Positions 19,662-62,612 of a DNA stretch of 64,000 nt are shown piece by piece (position 1 is the first letter of the stretch; each line of letters begins with the position of its first letter). Under the pieces are notes generated by a model. That model ran no database searches. It saw nothing but the letters and a program-made list of their open reading frames with translations, and was not told the DNA's origin. Position numbers and translations under genes: made by a program. The stretch comes from Amphirosellinia nigrospora (taxonomy: Eukaryota > Ascomycota > Sordariomycetes > Xylariales > Xylariaceae), in contig SCHM01000004.1 in assembly GCA_004123355.1 (NCBI GenBank), positions 2,946,316 to 3,010,315 on the forward strand, given 5' to 3'.

Positions 19662-21271
19662 ATATTTTTTTATTATAATTATAGTATTATTTACGTATAA
19701 GTTATATATTAGTATTAACTATATAATAGCTAATTATAATTATAGTATTAATTATTTATATAATAAAGTTAAGCTAGTATGTTTGCCCGATTTAGTTATA
19801 CGGTATTATAATAAAATTTTTTCGTATAAAAAATTTTTTTATACGAAAGTTTAGTTTTTGTATAAATAAATATAGAAAATAAATCGATTATATAAATATT
19901 TATTTTATTTATTATTACGTATAATATTATATTTTTAGCTATTTAATATTAATTAAGATTTTTAGCTAAAAATATAAAATTAATAAAATAAAAACGGAAT
20001 TTAATTTAGTTATATAAACTACGTTTTTATATTATATTTTAGTTTTTTTAATATTATATTAATAAAAAAAAAATTAATTATTAATATATTTTAATATTAT
20101 TTTTATATAAAAGTTTAATTAATGCGCGTAATTATATTATTTTTAATTATTATTATATAAACTATATAAAAATTTATAATATAATTTAATAATTTTTATC
20201 TATAATATTTTCGAATATAAATAATAATATTAATTATATAATAGCTAATAAATAAATATATAAAAATATTATATTTTTTAAAAATAATTAAATAGCTAGA
20301 ATAGCTTTTTATTTTTTAGCTAATATTTTATATAAAATTATATCCGAAAAAATTATTTAAAAAATTAATATTTTTTAAGCTTTATAAAAAATTATTAATT
20401 TTTATATGTATAAAAATATTTTATAAAGCTTTTAAATAATTATTATAAAAAAGTTAATATATAATAATATATTTATATATAAAATATAATTAATTATTAT
20501 ATAATTTAAAAACTTTAAAAATATTAATAAAACTTTAAATTAATAAAACTTAAAATATTTAATAAAATTAATATTTAAATTATTAGAAAAATTTATAACG
20601 TTTTTATATAATAAACTTTTAAATTAAAAACTTATAAAATAGTTAAAAAAAAACTATATTATATAATTTATAAAAAATAAATATATTTTAATATATAAAT
20701 TTTAAATTTTTATATAATTATTTTAAATAATATTTATATTTTTATATTAATTAAACTTTAAAATTAGTAAAATTTTTATATAATAAAATAATTTTATAAT
20801 TTTTTTTTTAAATAATAAAAAACAAAAAAAAAAACAAAAAACAAATAAAAAAATAGCTATAAAATAACCTAATATATAACTAAAAGCTAGCTTTTTAACT
20901 TTAAATAATAAAATATTATATAAAATAAAATATTAAAAATAAAGTTCTAAAAACTTTTTATAATTATTAAACGTTATTTATTATTTATTTTTAATTAAAT
21001 TATTTTTTATATAATAAAAAGTATATTATATTTTTAACGTATAATAAAATATTTAATTTTTTAAAATTTTTTTAAACTTTAAAATAATTTATTTATTATA
21101 TATATTAAATATAAAAGTATTTTTATTTAAAATTTAGATTTTTTTTACGTATAATATTTAAAATAAAACTATTTTATTGCGAAATATTAGATTTTTTTAA
21201 AAACTTAGCAAAAAAAAAAAACTACTCTAAAAAACTATATAATTTATTTATAATAAAATATAATAGTTCGT
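19662..21271 (+). mobile_element. LTR retrotransposon D, 5' leader fragment (LTR plus start of internal region)
   Basis: An LTR of about 285 bp (19662-19947, ending ctatttaata) is followed by about 1.3 kb of internal sequence. The same LTR-plus-internal order occurs again directly downstream from 21272, so this piece looks like a truncated copy or a duplicated leader. Fossil, pervasively decayed; superfamily not determinable. Confidence 0.55.
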
Positions 21272-21853
21272 TAATTATTATATATTTATTATTTATATAC
21301 GGAGTTAATATATTGTATTAATTATATATAATAAATTAATTATAGTATTAGCTGTTTAATAATAAAAATTAAGCTAGTATGTCCGCCCGATTTAGTTATA
21401 TAGTATTGCGGCAAAATTTTTTTATATAAAAAAATTTTTTATATAAAAGCCTAGCTTTTATACAAATAATTAAAAAAAAAATCAATATATATAAATATAT
21501 TTTATTATTATATATAATATATATTTTTATATTATTAATATAAATTAATAATATTTTTAGCTAAAAAATATAAATTAGTAAAATAAAAATAAAATTTAAC
21601 TTAATTATATAAGCTGCGTTTTTATATTATATTTTAGTTTTTTTAATATTATATTAATAAAAAAAAATTAATTATTTTAACGTACTTTAATATTTATTTA
21701 TATAAAAGTTTAATTAATAGTATATAATTATATTATTTTTAATTATTATTATATAAACTATATAAAGTTCGTAATATAATTTAATAACTTTTTTGTTTAT
21801 AATATTTTTAAATATAATAAAAAATAATAATTAATTATATAATAATTAATATA

Positions 21854-22656
21854 ACGTACTACACAACATCCTGGCCACACAAGCATGCTGGCCACTTAGG
21901 CTTGGCATTTTACTAAAATTATAATAACTTTACGGAACTAAGCTTAATCGGGAAATAATTTATAGGTTTAATATATAACTATATTTAGTATATAAATATA
22001 ATTTTTTTAATTTTTTACGCTAGCTTAATAAGGTTATAAACCCCGGTTTTTAAAGTAAGCTAAAAATAAAGCTAAAATAAAATCCTAGTTAATACTAGCG
22101 TATAATTTTACTAAAATTTTGAAAAAATTAAAATTAGATTTATTATGTTTTTTATATTATATGTATTTTTTTCGAATTTTTTAAACTAGGTTTAATATTT
22201 CTTTTTATTTTTAAAGTGTAAAATTTTATTATTTTTTTATTTTTTTTATTTTTTTCAATTTTTTTTATTTAATTTTTTATATTTTTTTATACTTTAAAAA
22301 ATAAAAAAAAATACTAAACCTACGTTAAAAAATCCAGAAAAAATATATATAATATAAAAAAACATAATAAATCTAATTTCAATTTTTCCAAAATTTTAGT
22401 AAAATTATACGCTAATATTAACTAGGATTTTATTTTAGCTTTATTTTTAGCTTACTTTAAAAACCAGGGTTTATAACTTTATTAAGCTAGCGTAAAAAAT
22501 TAAAAAAATTATATTTAATACTAAATATAGTTATATATTAAACCTATAAATTATTTCCCGATTAAGCTTAGTTCCGTAAAGTTATTATAATTTTAGTAAA
22601 ATGCTAAGCTTAAGTGGCTAGTATGCTTGTGTGGCCAGGATGGTTATGTGGTACGT
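21854..22656. mobile_element. 803-bp palindromic foldback element (mariner-type MITE)
   Basis: Starts acgtac and ends gtacgt, flanked on both sides by TA (21852-21853, 22657-22658), the target duplication of Tc1/mariner elements. The right half is nearly the reverse complement of the left over almost its whole length, centred near 22255, so it could fold into a hairpin with arms of about 400 bp. Its outer 60 bp keep normal base composition (catcctggccacac, agcatgctggccac). The same terminal sequence occurs at the 1.8-kb element at 42059, so this is a non-autonomous relative. It is absent from the equivalent place in copy D2. No coding capacity. Confidence 0.8.
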
Positions 22657-24596
22657 TAAACAAATATATAAAAACGCTATATTTTCGAAAAAATAGCTAA
22701 AATAACTTTTTATTTTTTTAGCTAATATTTTATATAATAATATAGCTAAAAAATTATTTAAAAAACTAGTATATTTTTAAGTTTTATATAAAAACTATTA
22801 ACTTTTATATATATAAAAATATTTTATAAAACTTTAAAATAATTATTATAAAATAAATTAATATATAAATAATATATTTATATATAAAATATAATTATAT
22901 TTTATATAATTTAAAAAACTTTTAAAAAATATTAATAAAAATTTTAAAATAAAAACTTAAAATATTTAATAAAATTAATATTTAAATTATTAAAAAAATT
23001 TATAACGTTTTTTATATAAAAAACGTTTTAAATTAAAAATTTATAAAACGGTTAAAAAAAACTATATTATAATTTATAAAAAATAAATATATTTTAATAT
23101 ATAAATTTTAAATTTTATATAACTATTTTAAATAATATTTATATTTTTTATATTAAATTAATAATTTTAAAATTAATAAAGTTTTTTTATAATAAAATAA
23201 TTTTACGATTTTTTTTTTTAAATAAAAAAACAAATAAAAAAAAATAAAAAAATAAATAAAAAAATAGCTATAAAATAACTTATATATATAACTAAAAGCT
23301 AGCTTTTAATTTTAAATAATAAAATATTATATAAAATAAAATATTAAAAATAAAGTTTTAAAAACTTTTATAACTATTAAATATTATTTTATTATTTATT
23401 TTAATTAATAATTTATTTTTATATAAATAAAAAATATATATATTTTAACGTATAATAAAATATTTAGTTTTTTAAAAAAATTTTTAAACTTTAAAATAAT
23501 TTATTTATTATATAATATTAAATATAAAAATATTTTATTTAAATTTAAATTTTTTTATATAAATTTAAAACGGAGTTATTTTATTTATAAAATATTAAAT
23601 TTTTTTAAAAATTTAATAAAAAAAAAAAATTATTTTAAAAAATATATAACTTATTTATAATAAAATATAATAATTCGTTAATTATTATTATAGTTTAAAA
23701 TTATAAAAAATTAATTTTATATATATTTTTATAATATTAACTAATTATATAAAAATTATTATATTATAATTAGTTAATTATATATAAAAAAAATATATAA
23801 TATTATAAATTTATATTTTAATAATTATAAACTATAATTAATATTAAACTAATTAAACTAATATTATTTTGCTTGAGTTTTATAAAGGAGGTATAACTAA
23901 AAAAGAAGGTTTTTTTCGATAAAAAATTTTTTGTTTTTTATATTTTAAATAAAAAATTCTTTTATTTAAATTAAGAACTTTTTATTTTTATTTATTATTA
24001 TATATATTTAGTTTTTAGTATTTATTTTATTATATAAATAATTATAAATTTAATAAAATAATTTAAAATTAATTATTTATATTAAAAATAATAGTATAAA
24101 TAATAAATTATAAAGTTTTATTTTGATTTTTTTTTATTAAAGTTATATTAATTAATTTTATATTAAATTTAATTATTAATAGTTATACGTTTTATTAAAC
24201 CCGATTATTTAATAGTTATATATTATATTAAACGCGATTATTTAATATTATTTGTTTAATTATATATAGTTATTTTATTTTTTTATTTTTTAATTTAATA
24301 TTAATTTAATATTATTATTTTTAGGTTATAAACTAATATTATTATTATAATTTTGCTTAAATATAATTTTTATTAAGCTATTTTTTAAAAAAACTATAAT
24401 TATTATAAAATTAGCTATTATATTAACGTAATAAATATAGCAGTATTTTTTATAAAGTATTTGTTTATAATTTTTTTATTTGTTTTTTTATTTTTTTTAT
24501 TATAATGTTTTAAATGTAGTTTTTAAGTTTCGAAGATTTTAAAGCTTTAAATCGATTATAATAAATATATTTTTAAATTTTTAAGTTTTTTTTTTA

Positions 24597-24815
24597 AAAC
24601 GTTTTAGCTAGCTTATAAAGTTTTTTTTAAACTTATTAGTAAGCTTAAGTTTTTTTTAAAAAGTTTTTTTTTTTAAACGTTTTAGTTAATTTATAAAGTT
24701 TTTTTAAATTATTAAAAGCTTAAGCTTTTTTCGAAAGGTTTTTTTTTTTTAAACGTTTTAGCTAATTTATAAAGTTTTTTTTAAATTTTTAAGCTTAAAT
24801 TTTTTTTAAAAAAAA
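24597..24815. repeat. Tandem repeat, about 77-bp unit, nearly three copies
   Basis: The marker aaacgttttag recurs at about 24597, 24675 and 24751, each followed by ctaatttataaag and a T/A-rich tail with aagcttaa. The copies have diverged. Lies inside the 1.57-kb insertion. Confidence 0.7.
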
Positions 24816-24868
24816 TAAAAATTTAATATATTATAAAAATATATTTTATAATAGCGCTATTATTTAAA

Positions 24869-24960
24869 ATATAAAGTTTATAGTTATATTTAAAATTAAA
24901 AATAATTTATAATTATATTTAAAATTAAAAATAGCTTATAATTATATTAAAATTTAAAAT
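24869..24960. repeat. Short tandem repeat, about 32-bp unit, three copies
   Basis: Units read roughly ttatagttatatttaaaa then ttaaaaata, with small differences. In the same insertion as the 77-bp array. Confidence 0.6.
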
Positions 24961-27900
24961 AATAATTTATACTTATTAAAAAACTTTTTAATTTTATTTA
25001 AATTAAAAATTATTTAAAAATTTTAATATTATAATAAGTTTTTTTACTTAAAATAAAAATTAATTATTTATTAATATTTAACTTTTTAATTTATTTATAG
25101 CTTAAAATTATAGTTTAATTATAAATAAAATATAATTTTAGCGTATATTATTACTATTAATAAAATAAATATATAAAAAATACTATATATTAACGTTTAT
25201 ATTTATAGGTAAATTTATTGCTATTATTAAATAGCCGAATATTTTATAACGTAATTATATAGTTATATAAAAAAACAAAATATTACGGTTAAAAAATTAA
25301 AATAAAATAATAAGTTTATTATACATAACTTATTAAAAAAGAGCGAACTAGCATAACTGGCAACTATAACTTATTTATTAACTTAAATACGTGGTTCTTA
25401 AAAATTTAAGCATTTTTGCCCTTGAATTAAAGGGCTTTTAGTATAAATATATAAATAAAAAAAAATTTATTTTTATATAAAATATTAAAATTATAATTAA
25501 TAAACTATTAAAGTTTAAAAATACTAAAAATAAAATATTTAAAAAAAATTTATTTAAATATAATATTATATATATATATAAAAATATTTTAAATTTAAAA
25601 TAATATTTATTTTTTAAAATTTATATATAAAAGATTTTTTTTAAACTTTATTTATATTTTTAAGTTAAAAAAAACTTAATAATTTAGCATTTTATATAAA
25701 AAATAAAAATTTTATTATATAAATTAATAATATAATTAAATTAATTATTATTTATATATAAAAAAAATTAATATATTTTAAAAGTTTTTAAAAAAATATA
25801 TTAATTAAAATTATATAAATAGTTATTTTTTAAAAAGTTTATATATAAATAAAAAATATTATTATTAAAAAAAAATATACTAATTAACTAATTATATTTT
25901 TTAAAAAAATTTTATATAAAAATTAATATTTTAATATATATAAAATATTTAAAATAAACTAATTTTTAAAAAATTTTAATTTATTTAATTAAAATATAAA
26001 AACTATTTAAATATATATAATAAAAAAAAAAAAAATTTAAATATATAAAATAAAAATATATAAATATTATTATAAATAATATATTTATATATTATATAAT
26101 AAAAAAAATATTTAGTTAATAATTATAAATTAGCTATTTAATTTGTTTATATTTAATAATTAATATTATATAAATATTAAAATATTATTTAAAATATAAA
26201 AGCTTTAAAATTTTTTATTATAAAAAAACTATAAATAAAAGCTTATATATAAAAATTTAAAAGCTAAAATTATTTAAATTTTTAAAATAACTAAAATAAG
26301 CTTTAATAAAAACTATATAATAACTTTAATTAATATAAAAATTAATAATTAAATTAATTATATAATTTTATATTTTAAATATTTTATTTTTTATTTTATT
26401 TTTTTTAAAATATAAATTATTTAAAAATATATTTTAATAATATAAAATTTATTATATAAAAAAATAAAAACAATATTTTTATTATATATAAATAAAACTA
26501 TTTATTTTTTAATATTAGCCCGTATAAAATAGCTAATTATTTTATAAAAACTAAACTATATATTTATATAAATAGTTTAGATATTTTTATATAAAAAAAT
26601 TATATAAATATTATTTTATATAAAATAAAATCGAATAATTTATTTTAAAAAAAATTTAAAAATTTTATTATTATTATTAAATATATAATAAAGCTTTATA
26701 ACAATTTAAATTTATAATTAAAATAATTATAAATTTAATTATAAAATAATTATAATATTATACGAATAAATAATTAAAATATATTATATATTATTAACGT
26801 TATTATATTATTTTAAATAATAATTTTTTTAAAATTAATATTTATATAAAACGCGTAAAAAATATTATATAAATATTAAATTAATATTTATTAAAAACTT
26901 TTTAATATTATATATAACTTTAAAATAAATTTTTTTTATTTAAAAATTAATATATAAAATAATTAATATATAATACTATAAAATATTTATCGAAATATAT
27001 TAAAAATAATAAAATAAAATAAATATATAAGCTATTTAAACGTACGTATAATATTTTTTAAAAAAAAATTAACGTATATATAAATAATAAATTAATTTTA
27101 TAAAATAATAAAAATATTAAATATTATTAAATTTAATAGTTTTATATTAATTTTTTTATTTTTAAAGCTTATTTTTATATTAATAAAAGTTTTTTTATTT
27201 TTTTTTATTATATAAAAAACAATAACTATTTAAAAATAATAAAAATATTATATAAAAACTATATAAAAATTAAAATTAATTATATAATTAATAAATAAAA
27301 TAAACTATTTTTATATAATATATTATATTTTTTTTTAAAATAAAGTTTTAATATAAAAAAAAAAAAAAAAAAAAAAACTATATAAAATCGAAATAATCGA
27401 AAAATTAAATATAATTGTAGCTTTAATTAATAAACTATATTTTTAATATATATAAATTAAACTATATTATTATATAAAAATATTTAAATAAATAATTTAA
27501 ATTAAAATAATATATAATTTATATAATTAATAATTATTAAAAAAAATATAATTAGCTAAAAAAAAAAATTTAATTTTATTATATAATATTTAAATATATT
27601 ATTATATAATATTTAAATATTATAAATTTTTTTAATAAAAAAAAAAAATAAGCTTTTAATTAATAACTAAACTATATAAATAAAATTATTATAACTTTTA
27701 ATAAACTATTTAAAAAATTAAATATAATAAAATTAATAAATTTATTATATAAAATATTTTTAAATTTATTATATATAATTTAAATATTTACGAAAAAAAA
27801 TATATTTTTAAGTTTTATTTTATATAAAAAATTAAAAAAAAAACTATAAAGCTATATAAAAATTTAAACTTATTATATAAAAATATAATAATATTGAAAA

Positions 27901-30900
27901 AAATATTATTTAATTTAATCGTTAACGATTTAACGGATAAATTAATAGTTAATTTTAATATTTAGTTTTATTTTTATATAAAATTTTAAAGCTTTATATA
28001 AACTTAAAAATATTATTTAAACTTATATTTAATTAAAAAATAAACTATTATATAATATTTATACTTTTTATTTTTAAAGCTAAAAAAAAATTTTTTTAAA
28101 AACTATTTTATATATTATACGATTTTTATATAGTTTAGCTAAATTTAAGCTATATTAGTTTAAAATATATATTAATATTATTAAAAAAAATTTAAAATAA
28201 TATTTACGTATAACCTATATTTATTAATTATTTATAATATTAAATATTTTTAAAATAATTAAAATATAAACGGATAATACGTTAAATGTTAAATAGCTAA
28301 AAAGATATATTATATTATAATAATAAATAAAATAAATACTAATATATATCGATTTATTTTTTTTACTATTTATATAAAGCTAAACTTTTATACAAAGAAT
28401 TTTTTTATACGAAAAAAATTTTATTACAATATATTATATAACTAAATTAAACGGATATATTAGCTTAACTTTATTATAAAATAGCTAATATTATAATTAA
28501 TAATTAATTATTATATAATTAATATTAATATATTAATTTTATATATAAATAATATTATAATTATAATATTAGCTTTTTTTTTTTAGCTATAACGTATTTT
28601 TATATAATTATTTTTTAATATAAAAAATCTAAACATAAAAAAAATATTAAATATATCGTATAGCAAATATATAAATTAAAAAAACGCCCGATAATATATT
28701 AAATTATTATTTTTTAAAAATTTAATATTTATATAACTATATATAAAAAAAAAGTTAGTAAATACGGATAAAAAAGCTAACCTATATATAATTATTATAT
28801 ATAATTTTTTATTTAATTTGTTTAAATATTTTAAAAGATTAAATAATATATTGCTTTTATGTTTATATTATTATATGTAAATTAGGTTATTTTTATATTT
28901 TTTTTTGTTTTTTTTTTTTTTTTTTTTTTTTTTACGTGCGTATATTTATATTTATATATATATATATATATATATATACGTATATATATACTTTATATAT
29001 ATGCTTTAATTAATTTTGCAAATTTATATAGTATTAAGTTTAATAATCGTTGTATAATAAACGTAATATTAGCAGCAATATTAATAATAACACTAGTAGC
29101 ATTAATAGTACCGGTAGTATTAATAGTAATATTATTGCTATTATTACTATTATTTATTATACGTAAAGCTTTTTAAGTTTTTTTAAATATTATATTAATA
29201 AATAATTAAAGCAAAATTACTATTAATATTAATAATAGCTATTATAAAATTTATTAATTTTATTAAAGTTTTTTATTTATATTTTATATTTTTATTTTTA
29301 ATAATATTATATAGTTTTAAAACTTTATACGTTTAAAAAATAGCAGCGCTATTAAAGTTTATAACTTTTTTACTAAAAGTTAAGCTTATAAAGCTTTTAT
29401 ATTAACGTTATATATAAACGTATATATATTTTATTTATTTATTTTATATAAATAATTTTTAATATATATTTTAGCTAATTTATTTTATTATATAATAAAA
29501 CGAAAAAAATATAATCGTTTTTATTTTTTCGTACAATATTATTTTCTAAGTATTTATAACTATTATTTTTATTAATATATAAACGAAATTTATTTATTAA
29601 AAAAAATATTTCTATATAATTTTTATTTAAAATTATAACTAAATTATCGTTTTATATTTAAATAATCTACGTAATAATTACGCTAATTATTAAAATGTTT
29701 TATTTAACTAATATTATATAATATTAAGTTTTTAAAGCGGCGTTTATAGCAAGTTACGCTTTATACACTCGAAAAGATAAAGCTCTAGTATATATAATAT
29801 ATTATATATAAAATCTACAAATAAAGTAGGAAAAAAAAAGGTTTAAATCTATAATATAAGCAACTACTTAAATATTTGCGTAAAGTAGCTATATTTATTG
29901 CTAGTGCTTGCTTTTATTTTATAACTATATTTACTACAAATAATAGTTATATATTTATTATAAATAGTAGTTATTATAAGTAGAAATTATAGGTATTATA
30001 GCTAGTAAGGCATAGCTACTAAAGCTTATAAATTTATAACTATTGTTTTTAAAAAAAAAAAATAATTTAACTAAGGTTAAATTATAACTATTTTTAGCGA
30101 AAAAAAAAATCGCTTTAAGTTTTTATTAATATAACTTTTTATAAAGCTTTTACTATTAAATTATTATACTAGTTTTTTTATATATTGCTTAAAGTTTTTT
30201 TTATTTATAATATTAAATATATATAAACGTATTTTTTTTATTTATATATTTTTTTTTTACGTTATTTTTTTTTATGCTATAGCTTTATTATTATTTAAAT
30301 ATAGCTTATTAAAAGTATTATTTTATCTAATATTTAATTATATTTATAATTATACTAAAAGTTTAGCTAAATTAAAGTTTGCGTTATAAAATTTTTTTAG
30401 TACTTTTATACTATTTTTAAAGTTTTTTATAAATATTATATATTATTAAAATTTTATTTTTTTAGTTTATTTAATATTATAGTTTCCGATAATAAAATTA
30501 AAACGTTTATACTTTTTTTATAATAAATTTTTTTTTATTTTTAAGTTTTATTATTTTTTTTTTTAAGTTTTTATTTTTTAACTTAATAATAAATTATTTA
30601 AATATTTTTTATAATTAATATATATATTAATTAAATATTTTCTAAATTATAAAAATATTTAATATAAATATATTTCTGTTTTTTTTATATATTTTAAACT
30701 TTATTATATTATAAAAAAATTTAATTTATTTAATAAGCGGTTTATTTTTAAAATTATTTTTTTTTAAAATTAATATATAATTTTTTATATTAAATTAAAT
30801 TCGCGTTAATTTTATTAGCTTAATTAATTATACGTTTTTAAATATAATATAAGTTTTTTTTAGCTAATTTAATAAATTATATTTATTTTTTTATTTTTTT

Positions 30901-45785: not shown

Positions 45786-45838
45786 CGAATGGCAGTCACG
45801 CATTTACTGCAAGTGGCAGTTACTACAAGTGGAGATTA
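45786..45838 (+). repeat. Hairpin subrepeats within the element A LTR
   Basis: Two 15-bp palindromes, ACTGC-gaatg-GCAGT (45782-45796) and ACTGC-aagtg-GCAGT (45806-45820), lie 24 bp apart, flanked by degenerate units (tattcactgcaactg, tactacaagtgg). All four LTRs of A1 and A2 keep traces of the array. Could be protein-binding or RNA-structure elements of the LTR. Confidence 0.6.
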
Positions 45839-47816
45839 CGGGTGCTATGGCTAGTAAGGCACAGCACCAAAGCCTGCAGATCCGTAACTTAGCGTATATA
45901 GCGATTATATAATATTTGTTGTTTTATTATATATAGTTTAAATTTAAAAAAAAATAAAATAAAAAAAATTAGTTATACGCGTTATTTTTCGGGTATAAAT
46001 TTTAATCGTTATTTTTGCTATAATTTTTTAACTTTTTATTATTTATATATAATATCCGCTTTTTTAAATATTTATACGTAATATATTGTTTTATATATGC
46101 CCGGCTATTATTTATTATACGAGCGTACTTTTTATAGTTTTTTAATAAATATTTTAATTTATAAAATAGTTTATTTATAAAAACTAAAGTTTTTAATATT
46201 TAGTTAATATATATTTAATAAATATATTAGCTAAGTTATTTTTATTATTAATTATTATATTTTAAAATTTTTTTTTTTTATATAATTTTTAAAAAATATA
46301 TATTTATTATTAATTTTTTTTTAAGTTATTTTTAGTTTAATTAAATAATTATATAACGATTTAAATCTAAGTATAAAATAATAAAAATTAAAAATAAATT
46401 AAATATTTTATAATTTTTTAAAATATTATATAAAAAATAATAATATTATTAAAACTATTAATTATATTATATAATTTATTAGCTAAAATTTTACGTAATT
46501 TTTTTATATTTATTTAAATTTTAATATATAATATTATTTTTAATTTTAAAATTTAAGTTTATTATATTTTTATATAAGCTTTAATTATAAATATAATAAT
46601 AAATTTAAACTATAAATTATATTTATTTATTTATAAATAATTTATTTATAAAATAAAAAACTTCGTATAATAAAAATCGAAAAAAATAAATATAAGCTTT
46701 TTTAATAAGTTATTTTTTATTATTTTATTTATTTATTTAATATTTTAATATTATATAATTATAGCTTAATAATTTAAGCTATAATAATAAATTATACGTA
46801 GTTTAAATTAATATATATTATTAATATATATTTTTTAGTTTATTAAAAATATAAATTTAAATAAATTTTTTTATATAAAAGTTAATTTTAGTTAAATTTT
46901 TAGCTTAGCTTTTTAAATTATTATAATATTTTATTTATATAAAAAATTTTTTGCTATTAAACTTAAATAAATATTTAAAAATAAAATTTTTTTAAATTCG
47001 CGTAAAGTTTTATTTATTTAAGTTTTTTTTTTTCGTATAATAAAAATCTAATATAATAAAACTTAACGTATTATTTATTTATATTTTAATTATTTTAAAA
47101 ATATTTAAATTATTATAATTAAAATAAATTATATATAAATATTTATATTTTAAATTTTTTAATATTAATAATATATTTTAAACTAATATAGCTTAAATTT
47201 AGCTAAACTATATAAAATTATAAATATATAAAATAATTTTTAAAAAATATTTTTTTTTAGTTTTAAAATAAATAAATATAAATATTATATAATAGTTATT
47301 TTTTAATTAAATATAAGCTTAAATAATATTTTTAAGTTTATATAAAATTTTAAATTTTATATAAAAATAAAACTAAATATTAAATTAACTATTAATTTAT
47401 TTATTAAATTATTAATAATTAAATTAAAATAATATTTTTTTATATATTATATTTTTATATATAAATTTAAACTTTTTATATAGCTTATAGTTTTTTTTTT
47501 AACTTTTATATAAAATAAAACTTAAAAATTATTTTTTTTTATAAATTTAAATTATATAATAAATTTAAAAACGTTTTATATAATAAGTTTATTAATTTTT
47601 TTATATCCGATTTTTTAAATAGTTTACTAAAAGTTATAATAATTTTATTTATATATAGCTTAATTTAATTTAAAAGCTTGTTTTTTTTTTATTAAAAAGT
47701 TTATAATATTTAAATATTATATAATAAATATATTTAAACGTTATATAATAATAAAGCTAAGTTTTTTTTTTTTAGCTAGTTATGTTTTTTTTAATAATTA
47801 TTAGCTATATAAATTA

Positions 47817-50800
47817 AGTTATAGATCTATAGGCTTAGTGGCTATGCCCCACCACTAGCCACAGCACCTGTAATTTCTACTTGTAATAACTGCCACTTGT
47901 AGTGAATGCATAACTGCTATTGCAGTGAATATAGTTGCAGTGAATAAAGGCAAGCACTGGTAGTAAATATAGCTGCCTTACGCAAATATTTAAGCAGCTA
48001 CTATATTATAATTTAAACTTTTTTTTTTTATTTTATTTAAATAATTATTTATATATATATTAAATGCATTTTTTCGAATATATAAGCGTAATTATTTATA
48101 AATTATTTAAATATAAAATATTAAAATTATTTTTATAATATTTTAATTAAATTAAAAAATAATTAAAATATTAAAATATTTTTTAAAAAAAACAATAAAT
48201 AAGCATATATAGCCGTACGTACTAAAGCTTTATTAATATTAAACTATTGTTTTAAATATTTAAAATAATAGTTTATAATAAAACTATAATATAAAAATAT
48301 ATTTATTTTAGCTTTTTAAACTATATAAAAACTATAATAAGCTAAAAACTAATTATTTTAATTAATTATATTATTATTTATAATTTATTAAAAAATTAAT
48401 ATTAATTTAAATAATAAAATATAGTTATTAACTATATAGTTTAATATTTAATTAATAATTACGTAAATTATATAAAAAACTAAATTTAGTTTTTAAATAT
48501 AAATTAATATAATAAATAATTTAGCTATAATAAAAATAAACTAAATTAATATAAATAATATATATAAAACTTTATTATTTTTAAAAAATAATATTTATTT
48601 ATAATAGTTATTAATTTAATATATATTTATTTAAAAAATTAAATAAATAAATAAAGTTTTATTTAATTAAGTAAAAAATAAAATAAAATTATTATTTTTA
48701 TAATAAAATATATATTATATTAATATATATTATTAATATTTTTAATTTATAATTAAAAATAACTTTAGCTAATAATAACTAATTAATAAATTATTAATTA
48801 ATTATTAAATAAATTATAAAATAATTAATAATATAATATTATTTAAAATAATTTAAATATTTCGAACTAATAAATAGTTAATTTATTAAATTATTATAAA
48901 ATAATTTTTATTTTATTAAATAATAAAAAAAATAGCTAAATATAGTTAAAATATTAGTATTTATTTTTTATAATATAATTAAAAATAAACTTAAATTTAA
49001 AATATAAATTTAAATTATATAAATTGCTTTAAATTTAACGCTAATTAGTTTTATAATATATGCTAAAATAATTAATATTAAAATTATATTAAAAGTTATA
49101 ATTAATAATTTTTTTTTTTATTTTTTATTTAATTATTTTAATATATTTATTAATTTAAAACTATTTTAAAATATTTCGAAAAAATTTATATTAACGTTAA
49201 CTATAATAAAAAACTAAAATTAATTTTTAATTATTTAGTTTTAATTATAATATTAGTTAAATTTTTTAAGTTTTAAACTATTTTTATTTATTTAACTAAT
49301 AAAATAAATTTAATAAAACTAAATAAAAAAAAAGTTTAAAAATAAACTTTTTTTCGATTAATAATTAAAGCTATATTAAAATATTTAAAAAAAAATATTA
49401 ATTTTAATGTTTATACGAAATATTATTTTAAATAGTTTATTATTTAATAATAACGATTATAAATAAAATAAAACTATAAAAAAAAACGTAAAAATTTGCT
49501 GCTATAATTTTTTATTTTTTTTTTTGCTTTTATTCGAATAATTTTTATTTTTTTTAAAACTAAAAATAATAATAATAATTTTACTTAATTATTTAAGTTT
49601 AATATTAAAATATAATAATTAATTTTTAATAATAAATATTTAATTATTATTAATAAAAATATATTTTAAAAAAATATTTATTAAAAAATTAAACTTTAAT
49701 AAATAAAAAGCTTAAATTATTATTATTTTAGCTATATATAATATAATCGGATATTAACTAGCTAATATATAAAAAATAAACTTATAATAAATAAAAAAAA
49801 ATAACTTTAAAAAAATAACTTTTTTTTAAAAAAATATTTTTAAAAAATATTATTAATTATAAAATAAATTTAATAAAAAAATATTTAAGCAAAAATTTTT
49901 ATTATATATTTATATTTTATATAATAATAGATTTTTTTAACTATAAATAATTTTTTTAAAAATATAAAATAAATATATATATAAATATAAATAATAATTT
50001 ATAAAAAAATTATTAAATTATTTAATTTTATTATTATTATGATTTTTTTTAAAAAAGTTATAAAATATAATAATAAAACGAAAAAAATATTAATCGGGTT
50101 TTTTTATTATTATTAAAAATATATAAAAAATTTTTAAAAATAAATTTATAATTATTATTAATTTAATTTATAATATTATTTTAAATAAACTATAATTTAA
50201 ATATTATAATATTTATTAAATTATTAATAAAATTTTTAAATTTTTATTTTAATTATTTTTAATTATAATATAAAATATTATTTAATAATAAATAAAATAA
50301 ATATATAGTTATAATATTTAATTTATTAATTTAATATTAATTAATAAAACTATAATTTTAAAATCGAAAAAATATAATATTAATAATAATAAAAAAAATA
50401 AAATAATATTTAAAAAATATAAACCGAAAATATTTATTTTAAAATATATAATTTAATATAAAAAAATTTTAATAAAATAAAATAAATAATATTTAATTAT
50501 TTTTGCTAAATTTATTTTTAAAAAATATAAATTATTTTTTTATAAAAAATATAATTTCGATTTTTATTTAAAAGTTTAATAAAAAAAATCTTTATTATAT
50601 AAAATAAATAATATTAATTAATATAAAAAAAACTAATAATTAAAATATTTATTTAAATATAATTATTTTTAATATAATAATAAAAAAAACTAAATAAAAA
50701 ATATTTATATTATTAGTATTAATAAAATTAATAAAATAATTAAAAAATTAAAAAAAAATAAAAACGATTTTTTAGAAAAAAAAATAAAAAATTAAAACAA

Positions 50801-53800
50801 AAAACGTAAAAAAAATATTTAAAAATATTAAAATTTAATACGCGTTTTTAGCTAAATAAACTTTAATATATTTATTATATTATTTATAAATAAACTATAA
50901 AATAAAATTTATTAAAATAAATTTAAAATTAATTTAAACTATAATTTTTTATATAAAATATTATTAAACTAAAAACTATATAAAATTTTAATTAAAAACT
51001 TATATAAAAGTTTATTAAGCTTAATAATATTTTATAATATATTTATTTTATTTATAAAAAATAAATAATAAGTTTTATTTTTATATAAATTATTATAAAC
51101 TAACAAAATTACGAAAAAAACTAATATTTATTTTTTTTATTAAAAAAACTTTAGCTTATATTATTAAAGCAAAAATTTTTACCCGATTTAATATATAATA
51201 AATATTTAATTATATTTATATATTATTTAAAATAAAAATTATATAACGTTTTATATAAAATATATATATATTAATTATTAGTATTATTGTTTAATTTTAT
51301 TAACGGATTTTTAATGTTTAATAATATATTAATAATATATTATTTAATTTTTTAAACGATTTTTATACGTATATATTAATAACGTTATATTTATTTAAAA
51401 ATAATAAAAAATATATTATTTATATATATTATATTAAAATAATTAATTTAAGCTAAATTATAAATTAATTTAAAAAAGTTTAAATTTTTATATTATTAAA
51501 ACTAAGTTTTTAACTATATTATTAATATTAAAAAAATTCGAATAAATTTTACTAAAATTAATATTATATTAAAATAAAAACTTTTATATCGGTTAAAAAC
51601 GTATAATTTTTTTTAAAATTTTATAATTTTTATTATAATTTTATTAATATTTAAATTATATTATTACGTTTTTAAACTAATTAATACAAAAAATATATTT
51701 TTATATAAACTAAAAAATATAAAAAATTATTTTATTATTTAAAAAACTTTAATACGTTTTTTTTGCTAAAATATTTCGATTATAATTTATTAATAAAAAT
51801 TAAAACCGATTTTTTAATAACGTTAGTTTTAATATATTATTATAACTATATAATAAAACTTAATATTTTATATATTTTTCGAAAATATTTTATAATATTA
51901 AATTAAACTATAATATTTATAATAAAAAATTACTAATAATTATATTATACTTTAAAATAAAAACCTAAGCTAATTAATAACTATAATAAGCTTTTTTAAT
52001 ATTTATTAATAATTAAATATTAAAATTTTTTAGTAAAAATAATACTTTAATTTAAATAAGCTAAATAAATTAACTTTTTTTTAAAATATTTTTTTAATAT
52101 TATTTTAAAAAAAATAATATTAATTAACGTTTTATTATAAAATAAAAAAATTAATAATATAAAAAGCTAAAAAAAAACATAACGCTATTTTATAATATTT
52201 TAGTTAATAAATAATATAATATAACTAATTTTTATATAAATAAAATTATATTAAATAAATTTTATTAAAATAATATAAACTAAATATTTTTATAAAATTA
52301 TAATTAATCGAATAAATTTTTAAAAAAAACCGTAAAAATATAAATATAAAATTTATTATTAATAAATAAAAATAATAAACTAAAAAATTTATAAAAGCTA
52401 AAAAACAAATTAATTATATTTTATAAACGTTTAATTATTTTTAACTTTTTATATTTAAAAATATATTTTATTAAAAAACATATTATAAAATATTTATTAT
52501 ATATTTAAAAAATAAAATATATAAATTAATTATTAAACGTTATTAATAGTTTAAACTAAATAAAAATTATAATCGTTATATAATAAACTATATAAAATAT
52601 AAACTTATTAAAATATTTAAAATAAAATTTTTAATAAACTTATATTTTTTTTAATATTTAAACGTATATAGCGCTATTTATTATTAATTTTAAATAAATA
52701 TTTAAAAATAAATAAATATAATAATATATTAATTATAATAAATTATTTAAATAAATAAATAAATTATATTTTATATTATAAAAATAATTATAAAAACGTT
52801 ATTAAAATATATTATAAAAAACTTTTTTAAGTTTTTAGAATATTTATAACTATAATATTAAATTATAGATTTAGTTTATTTTTACTTTTATAAATAAATT
52901 ATATAACTAATAAATATAAATATACTAGTTATTATAAAATATTATAAAACTATAAAATAAGCAAAATTATAAATAAATATATTAATTAAAAATTATAACT
53001 ATATATAAATTATTATTAAAATAATTAATTTAAATATATATTTATAATAAATTATATTTAAATATTAATTTTATATTTTAATAAAATTATTATTTTATAA
53101 AATTAAAATAAGTTTTTAATACTATTTAATTTCGACTAAAAAATTAAACTAAAAAAAAAGCTATAAAAACTTTTTAAAAAAAAAAAATAATTCGAACAAT
53201 ATATAAAAAAAATAAAAAAAATAGTATATTTATTAAATTAGCTAAAAAAACTTATAATATATTTAAAATATATAATTAATTAAGCTAATAAAAGTTAATA
53301 TAAACTTAATTTTAATATAAAAATTATATATTAATTTTAAAAAAAAAATAGTTTTAAAAATAAACTATTTATTAAATAAGCTAGATTTTTTATAATATAA
53401 TAAAAGTTTAAAATATATAAAAAATAAAAATACTTTTATATTAAATATTTTTATAATTTAAAAAATATTAAACTTTATTATATAAATCGACTATAAAAAT
53501 ACTTAAATAATTTATTATTAAATTAAAAAGTAAAAAACTTAAAAAAAAAATAATAAAACTTAAAAATAAAAAAAGTTTATTATTAAAAAAATATAAATAT
53601 TTTAATTTTATTATTAAAGTTATAATATTAAATAAATTAAAAAAGTTAAACTTTAATAATATATAATTTTAATAAAAACTTTAAAAATAATATAAAAATA
53701 TTAAAAAATTTTTATAATATAAACTTTAATTTAACTAAACTTTTAATAAAATTATAAATATAGCTAAAATAGCATAAAAAACGAAATTTAATAAACTATA

Positions 53801-54362
53801 TTTAAATAATAATAAAGCTATATATAAAAAAAAAATAGCGTAAAAAAAAAACGCGTAAAATAAAAAATATATAAATATATATAAGCTTAAATATTATATT
53901 AAATAAAAAAACTTTAAATAACGTATAAAAAAGCTAATATAATAATTTAATAGTATAAAAGCTTTATAAAAAGTTATATTAGTAAAAACCCGAAACGATT
54001 TTTTTTTTTGCTAAAAAGTAGTCGCGATTTTAACCCCGGTTAAATTATTCTTTTTTTTTAAAAAGGGTAATTATAGATCTACAAGCTTTAATAGCTATGC
54101 TTTACTATTAGCTATAGCACCCGTAATCTTTATTTATAATAACTACTATTTATAATAATGCATAACTGCTATTTATAGTAAATATAGTTATAGTAAATAA
54201 AAGTAAGCACTAGTAATAAATATAGCTATTTTATGCGAATATTTAAGCAGCTGCTTATATTATAGATTTAAACCTTCTTTTTTTTTACTTTATTTGTAGA
54301 TTTTATATATAATATACTATATATGCTAAAGCTTTATTTTTTCGAGTGTGTAAAGCGTAACT
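47817..54362 (-). mobile_element. LTR retrotransposon fossil A2, uninterrupted
   Basis: 6546 bp, reverse orientation. LTRs 47817-48093 and 54069-54362 with the same ends as A1. An exact 5-bp duplication aatta lies on each side (47812-47816 and 54363-54367). It splits D2. It serves as the reference copy that reveals the B and mariner insertions in A1. Fossil with pervasive breaks. Confidence 0.82.
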
Positions 54363-57300
54363 AATTATATATTATTTTAGTTTAAATTATCCGCTTAAAA
54401 ATTTTTTATATAAATATAGCTTAATTTATATATATTAAAAATATATTAATTTATTAATTAAAGCTATAATTATATTTAATTTTTTAATTGTTTTAATTTT
54501 ATATAGTTTTTTTTATTTTATTTTTTTTTTATATTAAAATTTTATTTTAAAAAAAAATATAAATATATTATATAAAAATAGTTTATTTTATTTATTAATT
54601 ATATAATTAATTTTAATTTTTATATAATTTTTACGTAGTATTTTTATTATTTTTTAAATAGTTATTATTTTTATATAATAAAAAAAAATAAAAAAACTTT
54701 TTATTAATATAAAAATAAGCTTTAAAAATAAAAAAAATTAATATAAAACTATTAAGTTTAATAATATTATTTAATATTTTTATTATTATTTATAAATTAA
54801 TTTATTATTTATTATATTATTTTTTTTTAAAAAATATATATATATTTAAATAATTTATATACTTGTTTTATTTTATTTATTATTTAATATATTTTAATAA
54901 ATATTTTATAATATTATACGTTAGTTATTTTTATATATTTTTTAAATTTATCCGATAAAAAATTTATTTTAAAATTATATATAATATTATTAAAAAGTTT
55001 TTAATAATATAATTTAATATTTATATAATATTTTTTATATATTTTATATAAATATTAATTTTAAAAAAATCGCGTTTAAAATAATATAATAATATTAAAT
55101 ATATAATATATTTTAATTATTTATTTATATAATATTTATAATTATTTTATAGTTAAATTTATAATTATTTTTAATTATAAATTTAAATTATTATAAAGCT
55201 TTATTATACGTTTAATAATAATAATAAAATTTTTAAATTTTTTTTAAAATAAATTATTTAATTTTATATTTTATATAAAATAATATTTTATATAATTTTT
55301 TTATATAAAAATATTTAAATTATTTATATAAATAATATAGTTTAATTTTTATAAAATAGTTAGCTATTTATATAAATTAATATTAAAAAATAAATAGTTT
55401 TATTTATATATAATAAAAATATTGTTTTTATTTTTTTATATAATAATATTTTTTATATTATTAAAATATATTTTTAAATAGTTTATATTTTTTAAAAAAA
55501 ATAAAAATAAAATAAAAATATTTAAAATATAAAAATTATATAGCTAATTTAATTATTAATTTTTATTATATTAATTAAAATTATTATACGGTTTTTATTA
55601 AAATTTATTTTAATTATTTTAAAAGTTTATATAATTTTAGCTTTTAAGTTTTTTATATATAAACTTTTTTTTATTTTTTATAGTAAAAATTTTAAAGCTT
55701 TTATATTTTAAATAATATTTTAATATTTTATATAATATTAATTATTAAATATAAATAAATTAAATAACTAATTTATAATTATTAATTAAATATTTTTTTT
55801 ATTATATAATATATAAATATATTATTTATAATATATTATATAATGTTTTTATTTTATATATCCGAATTTTTTTTTTTTTTTTATTATATATATTTAAATA
55901 GTTTTTATATTTAATTAAATAAGTTAAAAATTTTTTAAAAATTAGTTTATTTTTAAATATTATTTCGTATATATTAAAATATTAATTTTTTATATAAAAT
56001 TTTTTTTAAAAATATAATTAATTAATTAATATTTTTTTTATAATAAATAAAGTATTTTTTATTTATATATAAATTTTTAAAAAATAATTATTTATATAAT
56101 TTTAACTAATATATTATTTTAAAAATTCTTAAAATATTATAATTTTTATATCGCGTAAAATAATAATTAATTTAGTTATATTATCGATTTATATAATAAA
56201 AATTTTTTATTTTTTATATAAAATATTAAATTATTAGGTTTTTTTTAACCCGAAAATATAAATAAAAGTTTAAAAAAATCTTTTATATATAAGTTTTTAA
56301 AAAATAAATATTATTTTAAATTTTAAAATATTTTTATACGTATATATAATAGTTATATTTAAATAAATTTTTTTTAAATATTTTATTTTAAATATTTTTT
56401 AAGCTTTAAATAATTTATTAATTATAACTTTTAATATTTTATATAAAAATAGGTTTTTTTTTATTTATATATTTATATAAAAATAATATTAGTTTAATTA
56501 GTTTAATATTAATTATAGTTCGTAATTATATTAAAATATATATTTATAATATTATATATTTTTTATATATAATTAAAACTAATATAATATATATAATAAT
56601 TTTTTATATAATTAGTTAATATTATAAAAATATAATATAAAACTAATTTTTATAATTTTAAGCTTATAATAATAATTAATAAACTATATTTTATTATAAA
56701 ATAAATTATATAGTTTTTTAAATAAAAATTTTTTTTTATTAAGTTTTTAAAAAAATTTAATATTTCGTAAATAAAATAATTTTATTTTAAATTATATATA
56801 AAAAAATCTAAATTTTAAATAAAAATATTTTTATATTTAATATTATAATAAATAAATTGCTTTAAAGTTTAAAAAATTTTTAAAAAATTAAATATTTATT
56901 ATATATTAAAAATATAATATATTTTTATTTATATAAAAAATAAATTATTAACTAAAATAAATAATAAATAATATTTAATAATTATAAAAGTTTTTAAAAT
57001 TTTATTTTTAATATTTTATTTTTATATAATATTTTATTATTTAAAATTAAAAAATTAGCTTTTAATTATATATATAAATTATTTTATAGCTATTTTTTGT
57101 TTATTTTTTATTTTTTTTTTATTTGTTTTTTTATTTAAAAAAAAAATTATAAAATTATTTTATCGTATAAAAAATTTTACTAATTTTAAAATTATTAATT
57201 TTATAAAAATTATAAATATTATTTAAAATAATTATATAAAAATTTAAAATTTATATATTAAAATATATTTATTTTTTATAAATTATATAATATAGTTTTT

Positions 57301-60300
57301 TTTTAACCGTTTTATAAATTTTTAATTTAAAACGTTTATTATATAAAAAACGCTATAAATTTTTTTAATAATTTAAATATTATTTTATTAAATATTTTAA
57401 ATTTTATTAATTTAAAGTTTTTTATTAATATTTTTTAAAAAATTTTTAAATCGTATAAAACTAATTATATTTTATATATAAATATATTATTTATATATTA
57501 ATTTTTTTATAATAGCTATTTATAAATTTTTTAAAATATTTTTAATATATAAAAGTTAATAGTTTTTTATATAAAATTTAATAATATATTAGTTTTTTAA
57601 ATAATTTCTTTAGTTATATTTTCGTATAAAATATTAGCTAAAAATATAAAAAGTTATTTTAGCTGCTTTTTTAAAAATATAACGTTTTTATATATTTATT
57701 TATATTAATTATTATATAATTAATTATTATTATTTATTATATTTAAAAATATTATAAACAAAAAAATTATTAAATTATATTGCGAACTTTTATATAGTTC
57801 GTATAATAATAATTAAAAAATAATATAAATACATTATTAATTAAACTTTTATATAAAAATATAATATTAAATATATTAAAATAATTAATTTTTTTTTTAT
57901 TAATATAATATTAAAAAAACTAAAATATAATATAAAAATATAGTTTATATAACTAAATTAAAATTTTATTTTTATTTTATTAATTTATATTTTTTAATTA
58001 AAAATATTAATTAATATTAAATAGCTAAAAAATATAATATTATATATAATAAAATAATAAATATTAATATATATCGATTTATTTTTTTAATTATTTGTAT
58101 AAAAGCTAAGCTTTTATATAAAGAATTTTTTTATATAAAAAAATTCTACTATAGCATACTATATAACTAAATTAAGCGGATATATTAGCTTAATTTTATT
58201 ATATAAACAATTAATATTATAATTAATAATTAGCTATTATACGTAATTAATACTAATATATTAATTTTATACGTAAATAATATTGCAATTATAATATTAA
58301 GCTTTATTATATTAAACTTTTTATTATATAAAAAAAAAAATTTAAATAAATAAAACTTCGTATAAAGTTTAAAAAAACTTTATTTTTTAAATATTTATTT
58401 AAGTTTAATAATAAAAAGATTTTTTATATAAATAAAACATTATAATAACTTAAAAAACTAAGCTAAAAATTTAGCTAAAATTAACTTTTATATAAAAAAA
58501 TTCGTTTAAGCTTTATTTTTTAATAAGCTAAAAAAGTATATATTAATAATATATATTAATTTAAAACTATATATAATTTTATTATTATAGTTTAAATTAT
58601 TAAATTTAATTATATAATATTAAAGTATTAAATAAACGGATTAAATAATAAAAAAATAACTTATTAAAAAGTTTACGTTTATTTTTTTCGATTTTTATTA
58701 TATAAAGCTTTTTATTTTTATAAATAAATTATAAATAATATAAATATAATTTTATAGTTTAGATTTATTATTATATTTATAATTAAAGCTTATATAAAAA
58801 ATATAGCAAACTTAAATTTTAAAATCGAAAATAATATTATATACTAAAATTTAAATAAATATAAAAAGTTATATAAAATATTTTAGCTAATAAATATAAT
58901 ATAATTAATAGTTTTAATAATATTATTATTTTTTATATAATATTTTAAAAAGTTATAAAAATATTTAACTTATTTTTAATATTAGCTATTTTATATTTAA
59001 ATTTTAAATTATTATATAACTATTTAGTTAAGCTAAAAATAATTTAAAAAAAAAATTAATAATAAATATTATTTTTTTTAAAAATTATATAAAAAAAAAA
59101 ATTTTTAAAATATAATAAATTAATAATAAAAATAACCTAGCTAATATATTTATTAAACGTACGTTAAACTAAGTATTAAAAACTCTAGTTTTTATAAATA
59201 AGCTATTTATATAAATTAAAACATTTATTAAAAAACTATAAAAAGTACGTTTATATAATAAATAACAGCTAAATATATATAAAAACGATTATACTTTTTT
59301 ATTTTATTATATATAAAATAAATTAGCTAAAACATATTTAAAAATTATTTATATAAAATAATAAATAAAAATATACGTACGTTTATATAACGTTAATATA
59401 AAAGCTTTATAAGCTTAATTTTTAGTAAAAAAGCTATAAACTTTAGTAGCGCCGCTATTTTTTAAACGTACGAAGTTTTAAAACTATATAATACTACTAA
59501 AGGCAAAAAGCGTAAAGCATAAACAAAAAACCTTAATAAAATTAGCAAGTTTTATAATAACTATTATTAATATTAATAGTAATTTTATTTTAATTAATTA
59601 TTAATATAATATTTAAAAAAATTTAAAAAGCTTTACGTATAATAATAATATAGCAATAATAACGGTAATATTACTATTAATATTATTAATATTATAAATA
59701 TTATTATTAATATTATTATTAATATTATATTTATTATATAACGATTATTAGATTTAATATTATATAAGTTTATAAAATTAGTTAAAATATACGTATAAAT
59801 ATATATATATATATATATAAATATAAATATACGCGCGTAAAAAAAAAAAAAAAAAAAAAAAAAACAAAAAAGCAGTATAAAAATAACTTAATTTATATAT
59901 AATAATAATAAATATAAAAACAACGTATTATTTAATTTTTTAAAATATTTAAACAAATTAAACAAAAAAATTATATATAATAGTTATATATAAATTAGCT
60001 TTTTTATTTATACTTATTAACTTTTTTTTTTATATATAGTTATATAAATACCGGGCATTTTAAAAAAATAGCAATTTAATATATTATCGGGCGCTTTTTA
60101 TTTATATATTTGCTATACGATATATTTAATATTTTTTTTATATTTAAATTTTTTATATTAAAAAAAACAATCGTATAAAATACGCTATAACTAAAAAAAA
60201 AAAAGTTAATATTATAATTATAATATTATTATATATAAAGTTAATATATTAATATTAATTATATATAATAATTATTAAATTATAGCATTAATTGTTTATA

Positions 60301-60492
60301 TAATAAAGTTAAACTAATATATTCGCTTAATTTAGTTATATAATATATTATAGTAAAATTTTTTTCGTATAAAAAAATTCTCCGTATAAAAGCCTAGCTT
60401 TTATATAAATAAATATAAAAATAAATTAATATATATAAATATTTATTTTATTTATTATTACGTATAATATTATACCTTTTAGCTATTTAACA

Positions 60493-62104: not shown

Positions 62105-62137
<33 letters not shown>

Positions 62138-62570: not shown

Positions 62571-62612
<42 letters not shown>

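Follow-up and report, generated by a model that had tools for sequence, protein, structure and literature searches.

The whole 19.6–60.5 kb span of the window (the complete 64,000-nucleotide stretch of Amphirosellinia nigrospora DNA analysed here) consists of ten mobile-element insertions nested within one another. D-, A- and B-family LTR elements, two TA-inserting elements, one TRIM-like element and one unclassified repeat were inserted successively, and the summed own sequence of the ten elements equals the entire nest of 40,822 bp, which is fully assigned to elements. RIP turned nearly all C:G pairs to T:A in copies with homologues elsewhere, and it was weaker towards the outer element ends, over something like 100–200 bp, as shown for families A and D. 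Very probably, a ten-insertion nest followed by RIP that weakened towards the element ends is the best joint explanation. Nests of RIPed retrotransposons are already known, and this one is a well-resolved example; the sparing of the ends is the interesting part and is less expected than the nest itself.

Bases were recoded as purine or pyrimidine (RY) before self-comparison, which makes RIP transitions vanish. Among the matches listed, the pairs that define the nest scored from 158 (the weakest used) to 3142 (the best), and the best control scores were 95 for the reversed sequence and 61 for the complement. An ordinary blastn self-comparison was dropped because many unrelated stretches of this composition align at ~65% identity, so that signal cannot be told from noise. 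MAFFT alignment of the D-family LTRs inflated transversions near indels, and a transition-tolerant pairwise aligner was used instead.

These comparisons confirmed that the nest is real and made of paired-LTR elements inserted into each other (Table 1). The insertion order proposed in the initial annotation was borne out, with D2 inside D-family sequence, A1 and A2 in D2, B and a TA-flanked element in A1, and E in B. The target duplications read for the A, B and mariner-like elements are present at their borders, the paired LTRs of D2, A1, A2 and B were recovered by self-alignment, and homology ended within a few bases of the borders first read. RY junction alignments showed D1/D2 homology broken at the ends of D2, and A1/A2 homology broken at B and at M. 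Given ten insertions, the claim that almost all of the 41 kb was explained also holds; the count of about seven events was too low, and P and X were absent from it.

Table 1 Features of the nest and its surroundings, in window coordinates
Feature	Position	Strand	Evidence
O, outermost D-family LTR retrotransposon (probable)	19671..60492	+	LTR pair 19671-19948 / 60210-60492; contains all else
O, own sequence	19671-21275, probably plus 3' LTR 60210-60492	+	LTR matching
O 5' LTR (TATTA...TAATA)	19671..19948	+	RY self-match to 60210-60492
D1 5' LTR, inserted in O	21276..21552	+	RY matches to other D LTRs
D1 body, around P, X and D2	21276-28286 + 58297-60209		
D-family 3' LTR closing the nest, either that of O or an O/D1 recombinant	60210..60492	+	RY LTR matches, common transversion
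P, palindromic TA-flanked element in D1, 803 bp	21854..22656		TA/TA duplication; D1/D2 alignment gap
X, unclassified repeat in D1, 1.57 kb	23871..25441		D1/D2 alignment gap; borders accurate only to within a few bases
D2, D-family, in D1	28287..58296	-	LTRs 58014-58296 (5') and 28287-28570 (3'); target duplication TTAAA/TTAAG (+ strand)
A1, A-family LTR element in D2, holds B and M	29752..45889	- (by eye)	Target duplication TAGCA/TAGCG
B, LTR element in A1, holds E	33821..41507	- (by eye)	Target duplication TAGCT/TAGCT
E, TRIM-like, in B, 562 bp	35654..36215	+ (by eye)	Direct repeats; target duplication TTAAT/TTAAT
M, putative Tc1/mariner-like, in A1, 1.8 kb	42059..43853		TA/TA duplication; inverted ends ACGTAC...GTACGT
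A2, A-family LTR element in D2	47817..54362	+ (by eye)	Target duplication AATTA/AATTA; A1/A2 homology
E-family copy, one terminal repeat + interior, truncated	60677..61102	+	RY match; not RIPed; 184 bp outside the nest

D2, A1, A2 and B each have a pair of long direct terminal repeats that could be aligned, and only a 5' LTR could be assigned to D1. Short target duplications are present for A1, A2, B and D2, with a 4/5 match for O and none found for D1. The LTR termini of families D and B are compatible with TG...CA (RIPed to TA...CA/TA). Family A has other termini (AGTTA...GTAACT, as at the ends of A2) and was placed by its target duplications. As a polypurine tract, an A run precedes 14/14 of the family D LTRs classed as 3'; families A and B were judged by eye. 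The uninterrupted insertion site of B reads TAACT in the A2 copy, and the B LTR has 41 genome matches, including the window's own. Stops occur every 7–10 codons in frames of A2, B, M, X and part of D1, and a Pfam search of B, the only element so searched, found no family at E up to 1 in four minus-strand pieces (36229-41185 in three frames and 34140-36480 in one). An extra layer between D2 and A1, made of 29525-29751 and 45890-46088, was considered and rejected: these two pieces, which flank A1, adjoin in 20/39 strong left-piece matches outside the window, several of them at known D copies (coordinates compared by eye), and are therefore D sequence that D1 lacks. The same adjacency supports A1 as an insertion.

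Segmental duplication or misassembly, instead of independent insertion, is a very improbable source of the repeats. D1 and D2 lie close together in opposite orientations, as do A1 and A2, in line with such an origin, but the elements have specific ends, their 5 bp or TA target duplications differ between copies, and family copies lie on several contigs; all of the families (D, A, B, E, M, P and X) recur elsewhere in the genome. A closer question is which LTRs belong to the outermost element. Judged from LTR variants, the pair is probably 19671/60210, since these two LTRs alone have in common one transversion that is absent from the other 31 D LTRs compared, the 21276 LTR included. The stretch initially called a D leader is indeed D sequence, but would thus probably form the 5' end of O, the outermost element. 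Between 19671-19948 and 60210-60492 there is 1 transversion in 274, against 5 in 262 between the 21276 and 60210 LTRs, and the flanks match at 4/5 for 19671/60492 (TTTTT/ATTTT) and at 2/5 for 21276/60492; with a target duplication of only 4/5, the O pairing is not proven. D1 has no 3' LTR of its own and no target duplication assignable within the nest, and recombination with D1 would probably have removed the middle of O. The earlier pairing is somewhat unlikely. In it, the outer complete element is D1, with the LTRs at 21276 and 60210, and 19671-21275 is left over from an older D copy that was hit by D1 and whose remainder was deleted. One gap column is common to those two LTRs alone, and transversion counts then fall with depth; however, it leaves the common transversion and the lower count of 19671/60210 against it, and a deletion stopping exactly at the LTR border needs a special event.

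The proposal that LTR divergence in the nest gives a relative clock was not supported, because LTR transversions lack resolution and any trend with depth rests on the pairing chosen. Under the earlier pairing, transversions by depth were 5/262, 4/284, 3/293, 3/277, 1/309 and 0/173 (p = 0.011, multinomial simulation); with the pairing favoured by the common variant, the outermost value became 1/274 and the trend was not significant (p = 0.34). The D2 pair, with 4 transversions in 284, had 3 in 280 when slightly different ends were used. The measure lacks resolution since the 33 D LTRs (28 outside the window) differed pairwise by a median of 2 transversions, compared with 0–5 for the pairs in the window.

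The RIP conversion of the nest follows from its base composition and from transitions far exceeding transversions between copies: LTR pairs differed by 26–65 transitions and 0–5 transversions. RIP as the mutator was supported by a C:G to T:A bias, CpA depletion and high TpA/ApT. GC content was 7–11% in eight of the ten elements, and the (CpA+TpG)/(ApC+GpT) ratio was 0.15–0.26 in the eight strongly RIPed elements and 1.17 in the GC-balanced flank. By overall composition, the view that every layer is RIPed was correct for O, D1, D2, A1, A2, B, M and X, but only partly so for E (GC 0.35) and P (GC 0.20, with 0.50/0.43 in its outer 60 bp).

The sparing of element ends was seen as mirror-image RIP loads on the two LTRs of one element. 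Scored sites were the transition differences within the LTR pairs of A1, A2, B, D2 and O. In the first 60% of the LTR, G/C was kept by the 5' LTR at 147 sites and by the 3' LTR at 19; in the last 40%, the counts were 14 and 41, the 60/40 split having been picked after fifths had been inspected. Among 31 D LTRs genome-wide (17 5' and 14 3', as judged only by their flanks), G/C in the first 35 bp was kept at 37/99 in 5' LTRs vs 12/83 in 3' LTRs, and in the last 36 bp at 40/214 vs 85/178; the position-weighted contrast was matched by 0/2000 label shuffles. The 5' LTR thus keeps G/C early and the 3' LTR late, which means that the element ends are spared. By family, the effect was present in A and D, one-sided in B (on the 5' side only: 35:6, then 5:3) and not seen in E, where the 3' repeat kept more without a swap (5:15, then 0:8). 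In P, X, A1 and A2 the outer 60 bp were rich in GC; M and B showed this at one end only, and D2 and O did not show it clearly. Also against end-sparing, the 31 D LTRs had no 5' excess at 71–142 bp (0.26 vs 0.33; 0.40 vs 0.41). Gene conversion of RIPed with unRIPed LTRs might also make patches of low and high GC, and an effect that is uneven among elements would suit either conversion or intrinsic LTR composition. We regard both as rather improbable sources of the mirror-image loads. Both LTRs of an element are identical at the outset, so intrinsic composition cannot differ within a pair, and the swap ran in the expected direction in A1, A2, D2, O and across the 31 D LTRs. Weaker RIP at the ends may reflect a homology-dependent recognition that becomes less efficient at the limit of homology to other copies.

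Host sequence beside the insertions gave a mixed picture and is not used as proof. Kept counts were 20:8 within 200 bp vs 17:28 at 200–600 bp for A2 in D2 (p = 0.008), and 19:4 vs 13:20 for B in A1 (p = 0.002); in the same tally, sparing was not significant for D1 in O, D2 in D1, M, P and X. A1 in D2 was left out of this tally because D1 lacks that segment, and the left side of M and the right side of B share one 550 bp stretch. When compared with other D copies, the right side of D2 in D1 showed no sparing (0.23 over the initial 50 bp, from nine copies), the left side of A1 in D2 no clear trend (eight copies, after one, L010, with a transversion rate of 0.126 was dropped), and the right side of A1 a modest sparing trend (nine copies). 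The initial view that RIP stayed active throughout is therefore only partly shown: the host beside A2 and B looks spared, as if RIP had continued after those insertions, but that beside D2, P and X does not.

A joint reading of these patterns, to which we give somewhat less than even credence, is that RIP loses efficiency within ~100–200 bp of where homology stops; that each LTR pair in a RIP-capable genome is a built-in ruler, one sequence being present twice, nearer to and farther from the limit of homology; that short elements such as E often escape by the same cause; and that flanking host sequence is spared only if the insertion preceded RIP of the host copy. If true, this would allow insertions to be ordered relative to RIP. 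Should RIP be weaker near homology ends, LTR pairs would show, in natural genomes and with no need for a cross, how far homology recognition extends, and LTR dates based on transitions would be biased by position along the LTR in fungi capable of RIP.

The nest resembles ascomycete AT-rich blocks in having nested LTR elements, a RIP signature and an AT-rich block beside GC-balanced genes. Leptosphaeria maculans reportedly has nested LTR retrotransposons in RIPed AT-rich blocks. The same arrangement is described, in the portion available, for Pyrenophora teres (PMC5915480). Long RIP-affected regions average 20.8–22.8% GC in three assemblies of one table (PMC7882544), whereas eight of our ten elements have 7–11%. 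For the Podospora element crapaud, the accessible text states that RIP hits LTRs belonging to full copies whereas solo LTRs are mostly spared, for which the authors cite small size; the terminal-repeat classification took from each full copy the 5' LTR only, and, unlike in our analysis, no 5'/3' contrast along the LTR was found in that text (PMC10787394). In Zymoseptoria tritici crosses, as in the nest, RIP depends on position along LTR elements; however, in the part of that report available, most new RIP mutations fell in the outermost windows, while the standing RIP load of the nest is lowest towards the ends (PMC10294615). This looks opposite to end-sparing, unless more unmutated target is left at the ends, and end-sparing, if true, suggests just such a substrate explanation for the pile-up. 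The nearest published parallel found, in the excerpt available, is one interspersed-homology construct in Neurospora, in which the first ~130 bp escaped RIP (PMC4858203). In the literature searched on RIP at repeat ends, LTR asymmetry, nested RIP clocks and very low GC, with subscription papers mostly outside its coverage, no end-sparing was reported from LTR pairs.

In the window and in genomic copies, E showed the short direct repeats, short interior and 5 bp duplication of TRIM elements, with terminal repeats of ~170 bp around an interior of ~220 bp and single repeats in the genome. Unlike TRIM elements, its tRNA-like stretch spans the border between repeat and interior, and its ends are AGTTAC...GTAACT, as in family A. 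The right copy of its target duplication overlaps its expected last T by one base. A genome search gave 17 matches, and perfect 5 bp duplications were seen by eye at 5/15 E loci (L072, L073, L077 with a T run, L081 and L084). ARAGORN called a tRNA-Tyr inside E (35779-35868) and, among nine further loci (eight with E), in one, L073; Rfam gave nothing in the window at the gathering threshold or in four E-containing loci at E up to 0.5.

X has further copies genome-wide (39 candidates scored). It was considered as a Helitron from a 3' hairpin and TTAG end, a reading dropped because, by eye, the 5' end and site did not fit. The mariner-like TA insertion noted initially was supported by the TA duplication and terminal inverted repeats of M, which has further copies genome-wide (40 candidates scored). 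M is probably Tc1/mariner-like, as judged from its ends, its size and the TA only, the transposase not being readable. P also has further copies (40 candidates scored); its arms are 97.9% alike in purine/pyrimidine code, and it resembles short Tc1/mariner derivatives in its TA duplication and in an end motif similar to that of M.

In ordinary alignment of the RIPed window DNA (RIP being fungal repeat-directed C:G to T:A mutation), unrelated stretches reach ~65% identity. We therefore compared the window with itself after recoding bases as purine or pyrimidine, an alphabet in which RIP transitions are invisible. The pairs that define the nest of transposable elements scored from 158 to 3142, against top control scores of 95 for reversed and 61 for complemented sequence; two lesser matches above the controls were a tandem array within X (114) and a pair inside the E family (121). 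Together with the borders and target duplications, these matches confirmed the nest described in the initial annotation, to which we added two elements absent from its list, P and X. Together, the ten pieces account for all 40,822 bp of the nest.

Elements of the nest (window coordinates; LTR, long terminal repeat families D, A and B)
Element	Coordinates	Type	Orientation	Location	Flanks or target duplication
O	19671-60492	D family		outermost
D1	starts with LTR at 21276	D family
D2	28287-58296	D family	minus	inside D1	TTAAA/TTAAG
A1	29752-45889	A family	opposite to A2	inside D2	TAGCA/TAGCG
A2	47817-54362	A family	opposite to A1	inside D2	AATTA/AATTA
B	33821-41507	LTR element		inside A1	TAGCT/TAGCT
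M	42059-43853	Tc1/mariner-like		inside A1	TA
E	35654-36215	TRIM-like		inside B	TTAAT, right copy overlaps last base of E
P	21854-22656	palindromic		inside D1	TA
X	23871-25441	unclassified repeat		inside D1

The nest structure is of a known kind, and the ends and target duplications point to insertion by an integrase or a TA-transposase. Coding frames were interrupted by stops, and B had no Pfam match. The D, A and B LTRs, E, P, X and M were all found again elsewhere in the genome (48.1 Mb in 11 contigs, the window being 2946316-3010315 of contig C6), with copy numbers that are lower bounds, as each search scored the best 40 candidates at most. D1 lacks ~0.4 kb present in D2 and other genomic copies. 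The sequences flanking A1 are contiguous in 20 of 39 other strong genomic matches.

Window bases 1-15800 are balanced in composition (GC 0.47), and three of the five ORFs searched there gave P450 and HET matches, which points to a probable ascomycete. GC drops abruptly from ~0.47 to ~0.13 across some 600 bp (~15800-16400), and 2 kb windows fall to 5-20% GC from ~16.4 kb onward. The (CpA+TpG)/(ApC+GpT) ratio gave a clear RIP signature, being 0.15-0.26 in O, D1, D2, A1, A2, B, M and X versus 1.17 in the balanced flank. Within the nest segments (19671-60492), CpA is depleted, C after T is scarce, and leftover C stands at GpC and CpG sites roughly 3 to 12 times as often as expected. More RIPed DNA, with GC of 0.12-0.13, lies on both sides (16401-19670 and 61103-64000). 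Elsewhere, five reverse-transcriptase matches without stops, all equal in score, lie on contigs C1 and C4, and contig C9 holds 15 of the 32 listed RVT_1 matches, 10 of these 15 without stops. Certain families or contigs seem to escape RIP.

Paired LTRs did not retain G/C evenly along their length. Pooled over A1, A2, B, D2 and O, sites differing by a transition kept G/C in the 5' copy at 147 and in the 3' copy at 19 across the first 60% of LTR length; in the last 40% the counts were 14 and 41. The Fisher p for this swap (2e-18) is optimistic, since the 60/40 split was picked post hoc from fifths and sites are non-independent. Stated free of orientation, the rule is that the outer end of every element is spared from RIP. 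Sparing in B was confined to the 5' side (35:6, then 5:3). Two pairs stood outside the pooled sum: E, without a swap (5:15, then 0:8), and the alternative pair 21276/60210, with one (18:7, then 2:7).

The same contrast appeared across 31 D LTRs (17 5' and 14 3', assigned from flank alone), comprising the window's three 5' LTRs and 28 of 30 fetched matches, two of which were the window's own 3' LTRs; the two others had unclassifiable flanks. In their first 35 bp, G/C was kept at 37/99 sites in 5' versus 12/83 in 3' LTRs, and in their last 36 bp at 40/214 versus 85/178; at 71-142 bp the 5' excess was absent. None of 2000 label shuffles reached the position-weighted contrast, and selection of the matches for likeness to a 3' LTR is expected to bias against the swap. 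For family A, 25 of 30 fetched matches to a little-RIPed 5' LTR were themselves 5' LTRs by flank (two being the window's own), one had both flank kinds and four had neither, a tally made weak by a query whose last few bases were internal. The outer 60 bp were GC-richer than the interior in P and X, on one side only in M and B, and not clearly in D2 and O.

PMC4858203 places RIP action where homology is shared. RIP may be weaker where homology stops, which would give end-sparing as seen in the LTR pairs. In Zymoseptoria tritici, however, 35% of transposons' new meiotic mutations fell in the outermost 5% of transposon length, mostly in LTR elements, according to PMC10294615. This is the opposite of a lower end rate, unless unmutated target is concentrated at the ends, as the standing pattern in the nest would itself predict. 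End-sparing deserves a dedicated test.

The initial annotation had paired the D LTRs at 21276 and 60210, which share one private gap column. This pair differs by 5 transversions in 262 sites versus 1 in 274 for 19671/60210, and 19671 and 60210 also have in common one transversion carried by 0 of 31 other D LTRs. The outer flanks at 19671/60492 (TTTTT/ATTTT) match at 4 of 5 bases, so target duplications do not settle the pairing. We favour a single element, O, at 19671-60492 with D1 inserted in it; the 3' LTR of D1 and the remainder of O would have been lost, most simply via recombination.

The nest had also been proposed to provide a relative clock, with LTR divergence dropping with nesting depth. 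Transversions in the other pairs were 4/284 (D2), 3/293 (A1), 3/277 (A2), 1/309 (B) and 0/173 (E). The counts fall with depth when 21276 is paired with 60210 (simulated p = 0.011) and show no fall with the O pairing (p = 0.34). A more telling result came from 33 D LTRs, five in the window and 28 fetched from other parts of the genome: their median pairwise difference is 2 transversions (5th-95th percentile, 0 to 5), so that the two LTRs of a pair resemble each other no more than unpaired ones do. The clock thus fails, and transversion counts cannot date the layers.

RIP that went on after an insertion would be expected to leave the host element spared next to the insertion site. Pooled host sequence kept G/C at 94/145 differing sites within 200 bp versus 135/260 at 200-600 bp (p = 0.012), in a tally that excludes the A1 insertion in D2 and enters one stretch twice. 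This sparing was due to A2 in D2 and B in A1, and was not significant at D1 in O, D2 in D1, M, P or X. Against other D copies, it was absent to the right of D2 in D1 and modest to the right of A1 in D2. A possible, not established, order has D1 RIPed before D2 arrived, A2 and B arriving while RIP was still acting on D2 and A1, and P and X coming last.

Ten of the 15 E loci examined have GC of at least 0.45, mostly within AT-rich flanks, and five, including the nest's E, have 0.16-0.34. Such frequent escape from RIP is expected if elements of ~560 bp are nearly all 'end'. An unRIPed E-family copy at 60677-61102 (GC 0.495, CpA not depleted), with one terminal repeat and interior before truncation, sits 184 bp beyond the border of the strongly RIPed nest. 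A tRNA-like stretch, possibly an internal RNA polymerase III promoter, spans the repeat/interior border of E; ARAGORN called a tRNA-Tyr in it in the window and one more in another E locus (L073), and Rfam gave no match for it in the window and E loci scanned. At two loci (L074 and L075), E copies begin right where an A-family LTR seems to end (gtgtgaagcgtaacT followed by AGTTA). The terminal motif AGTTAC...GTAACT is common to E and A.
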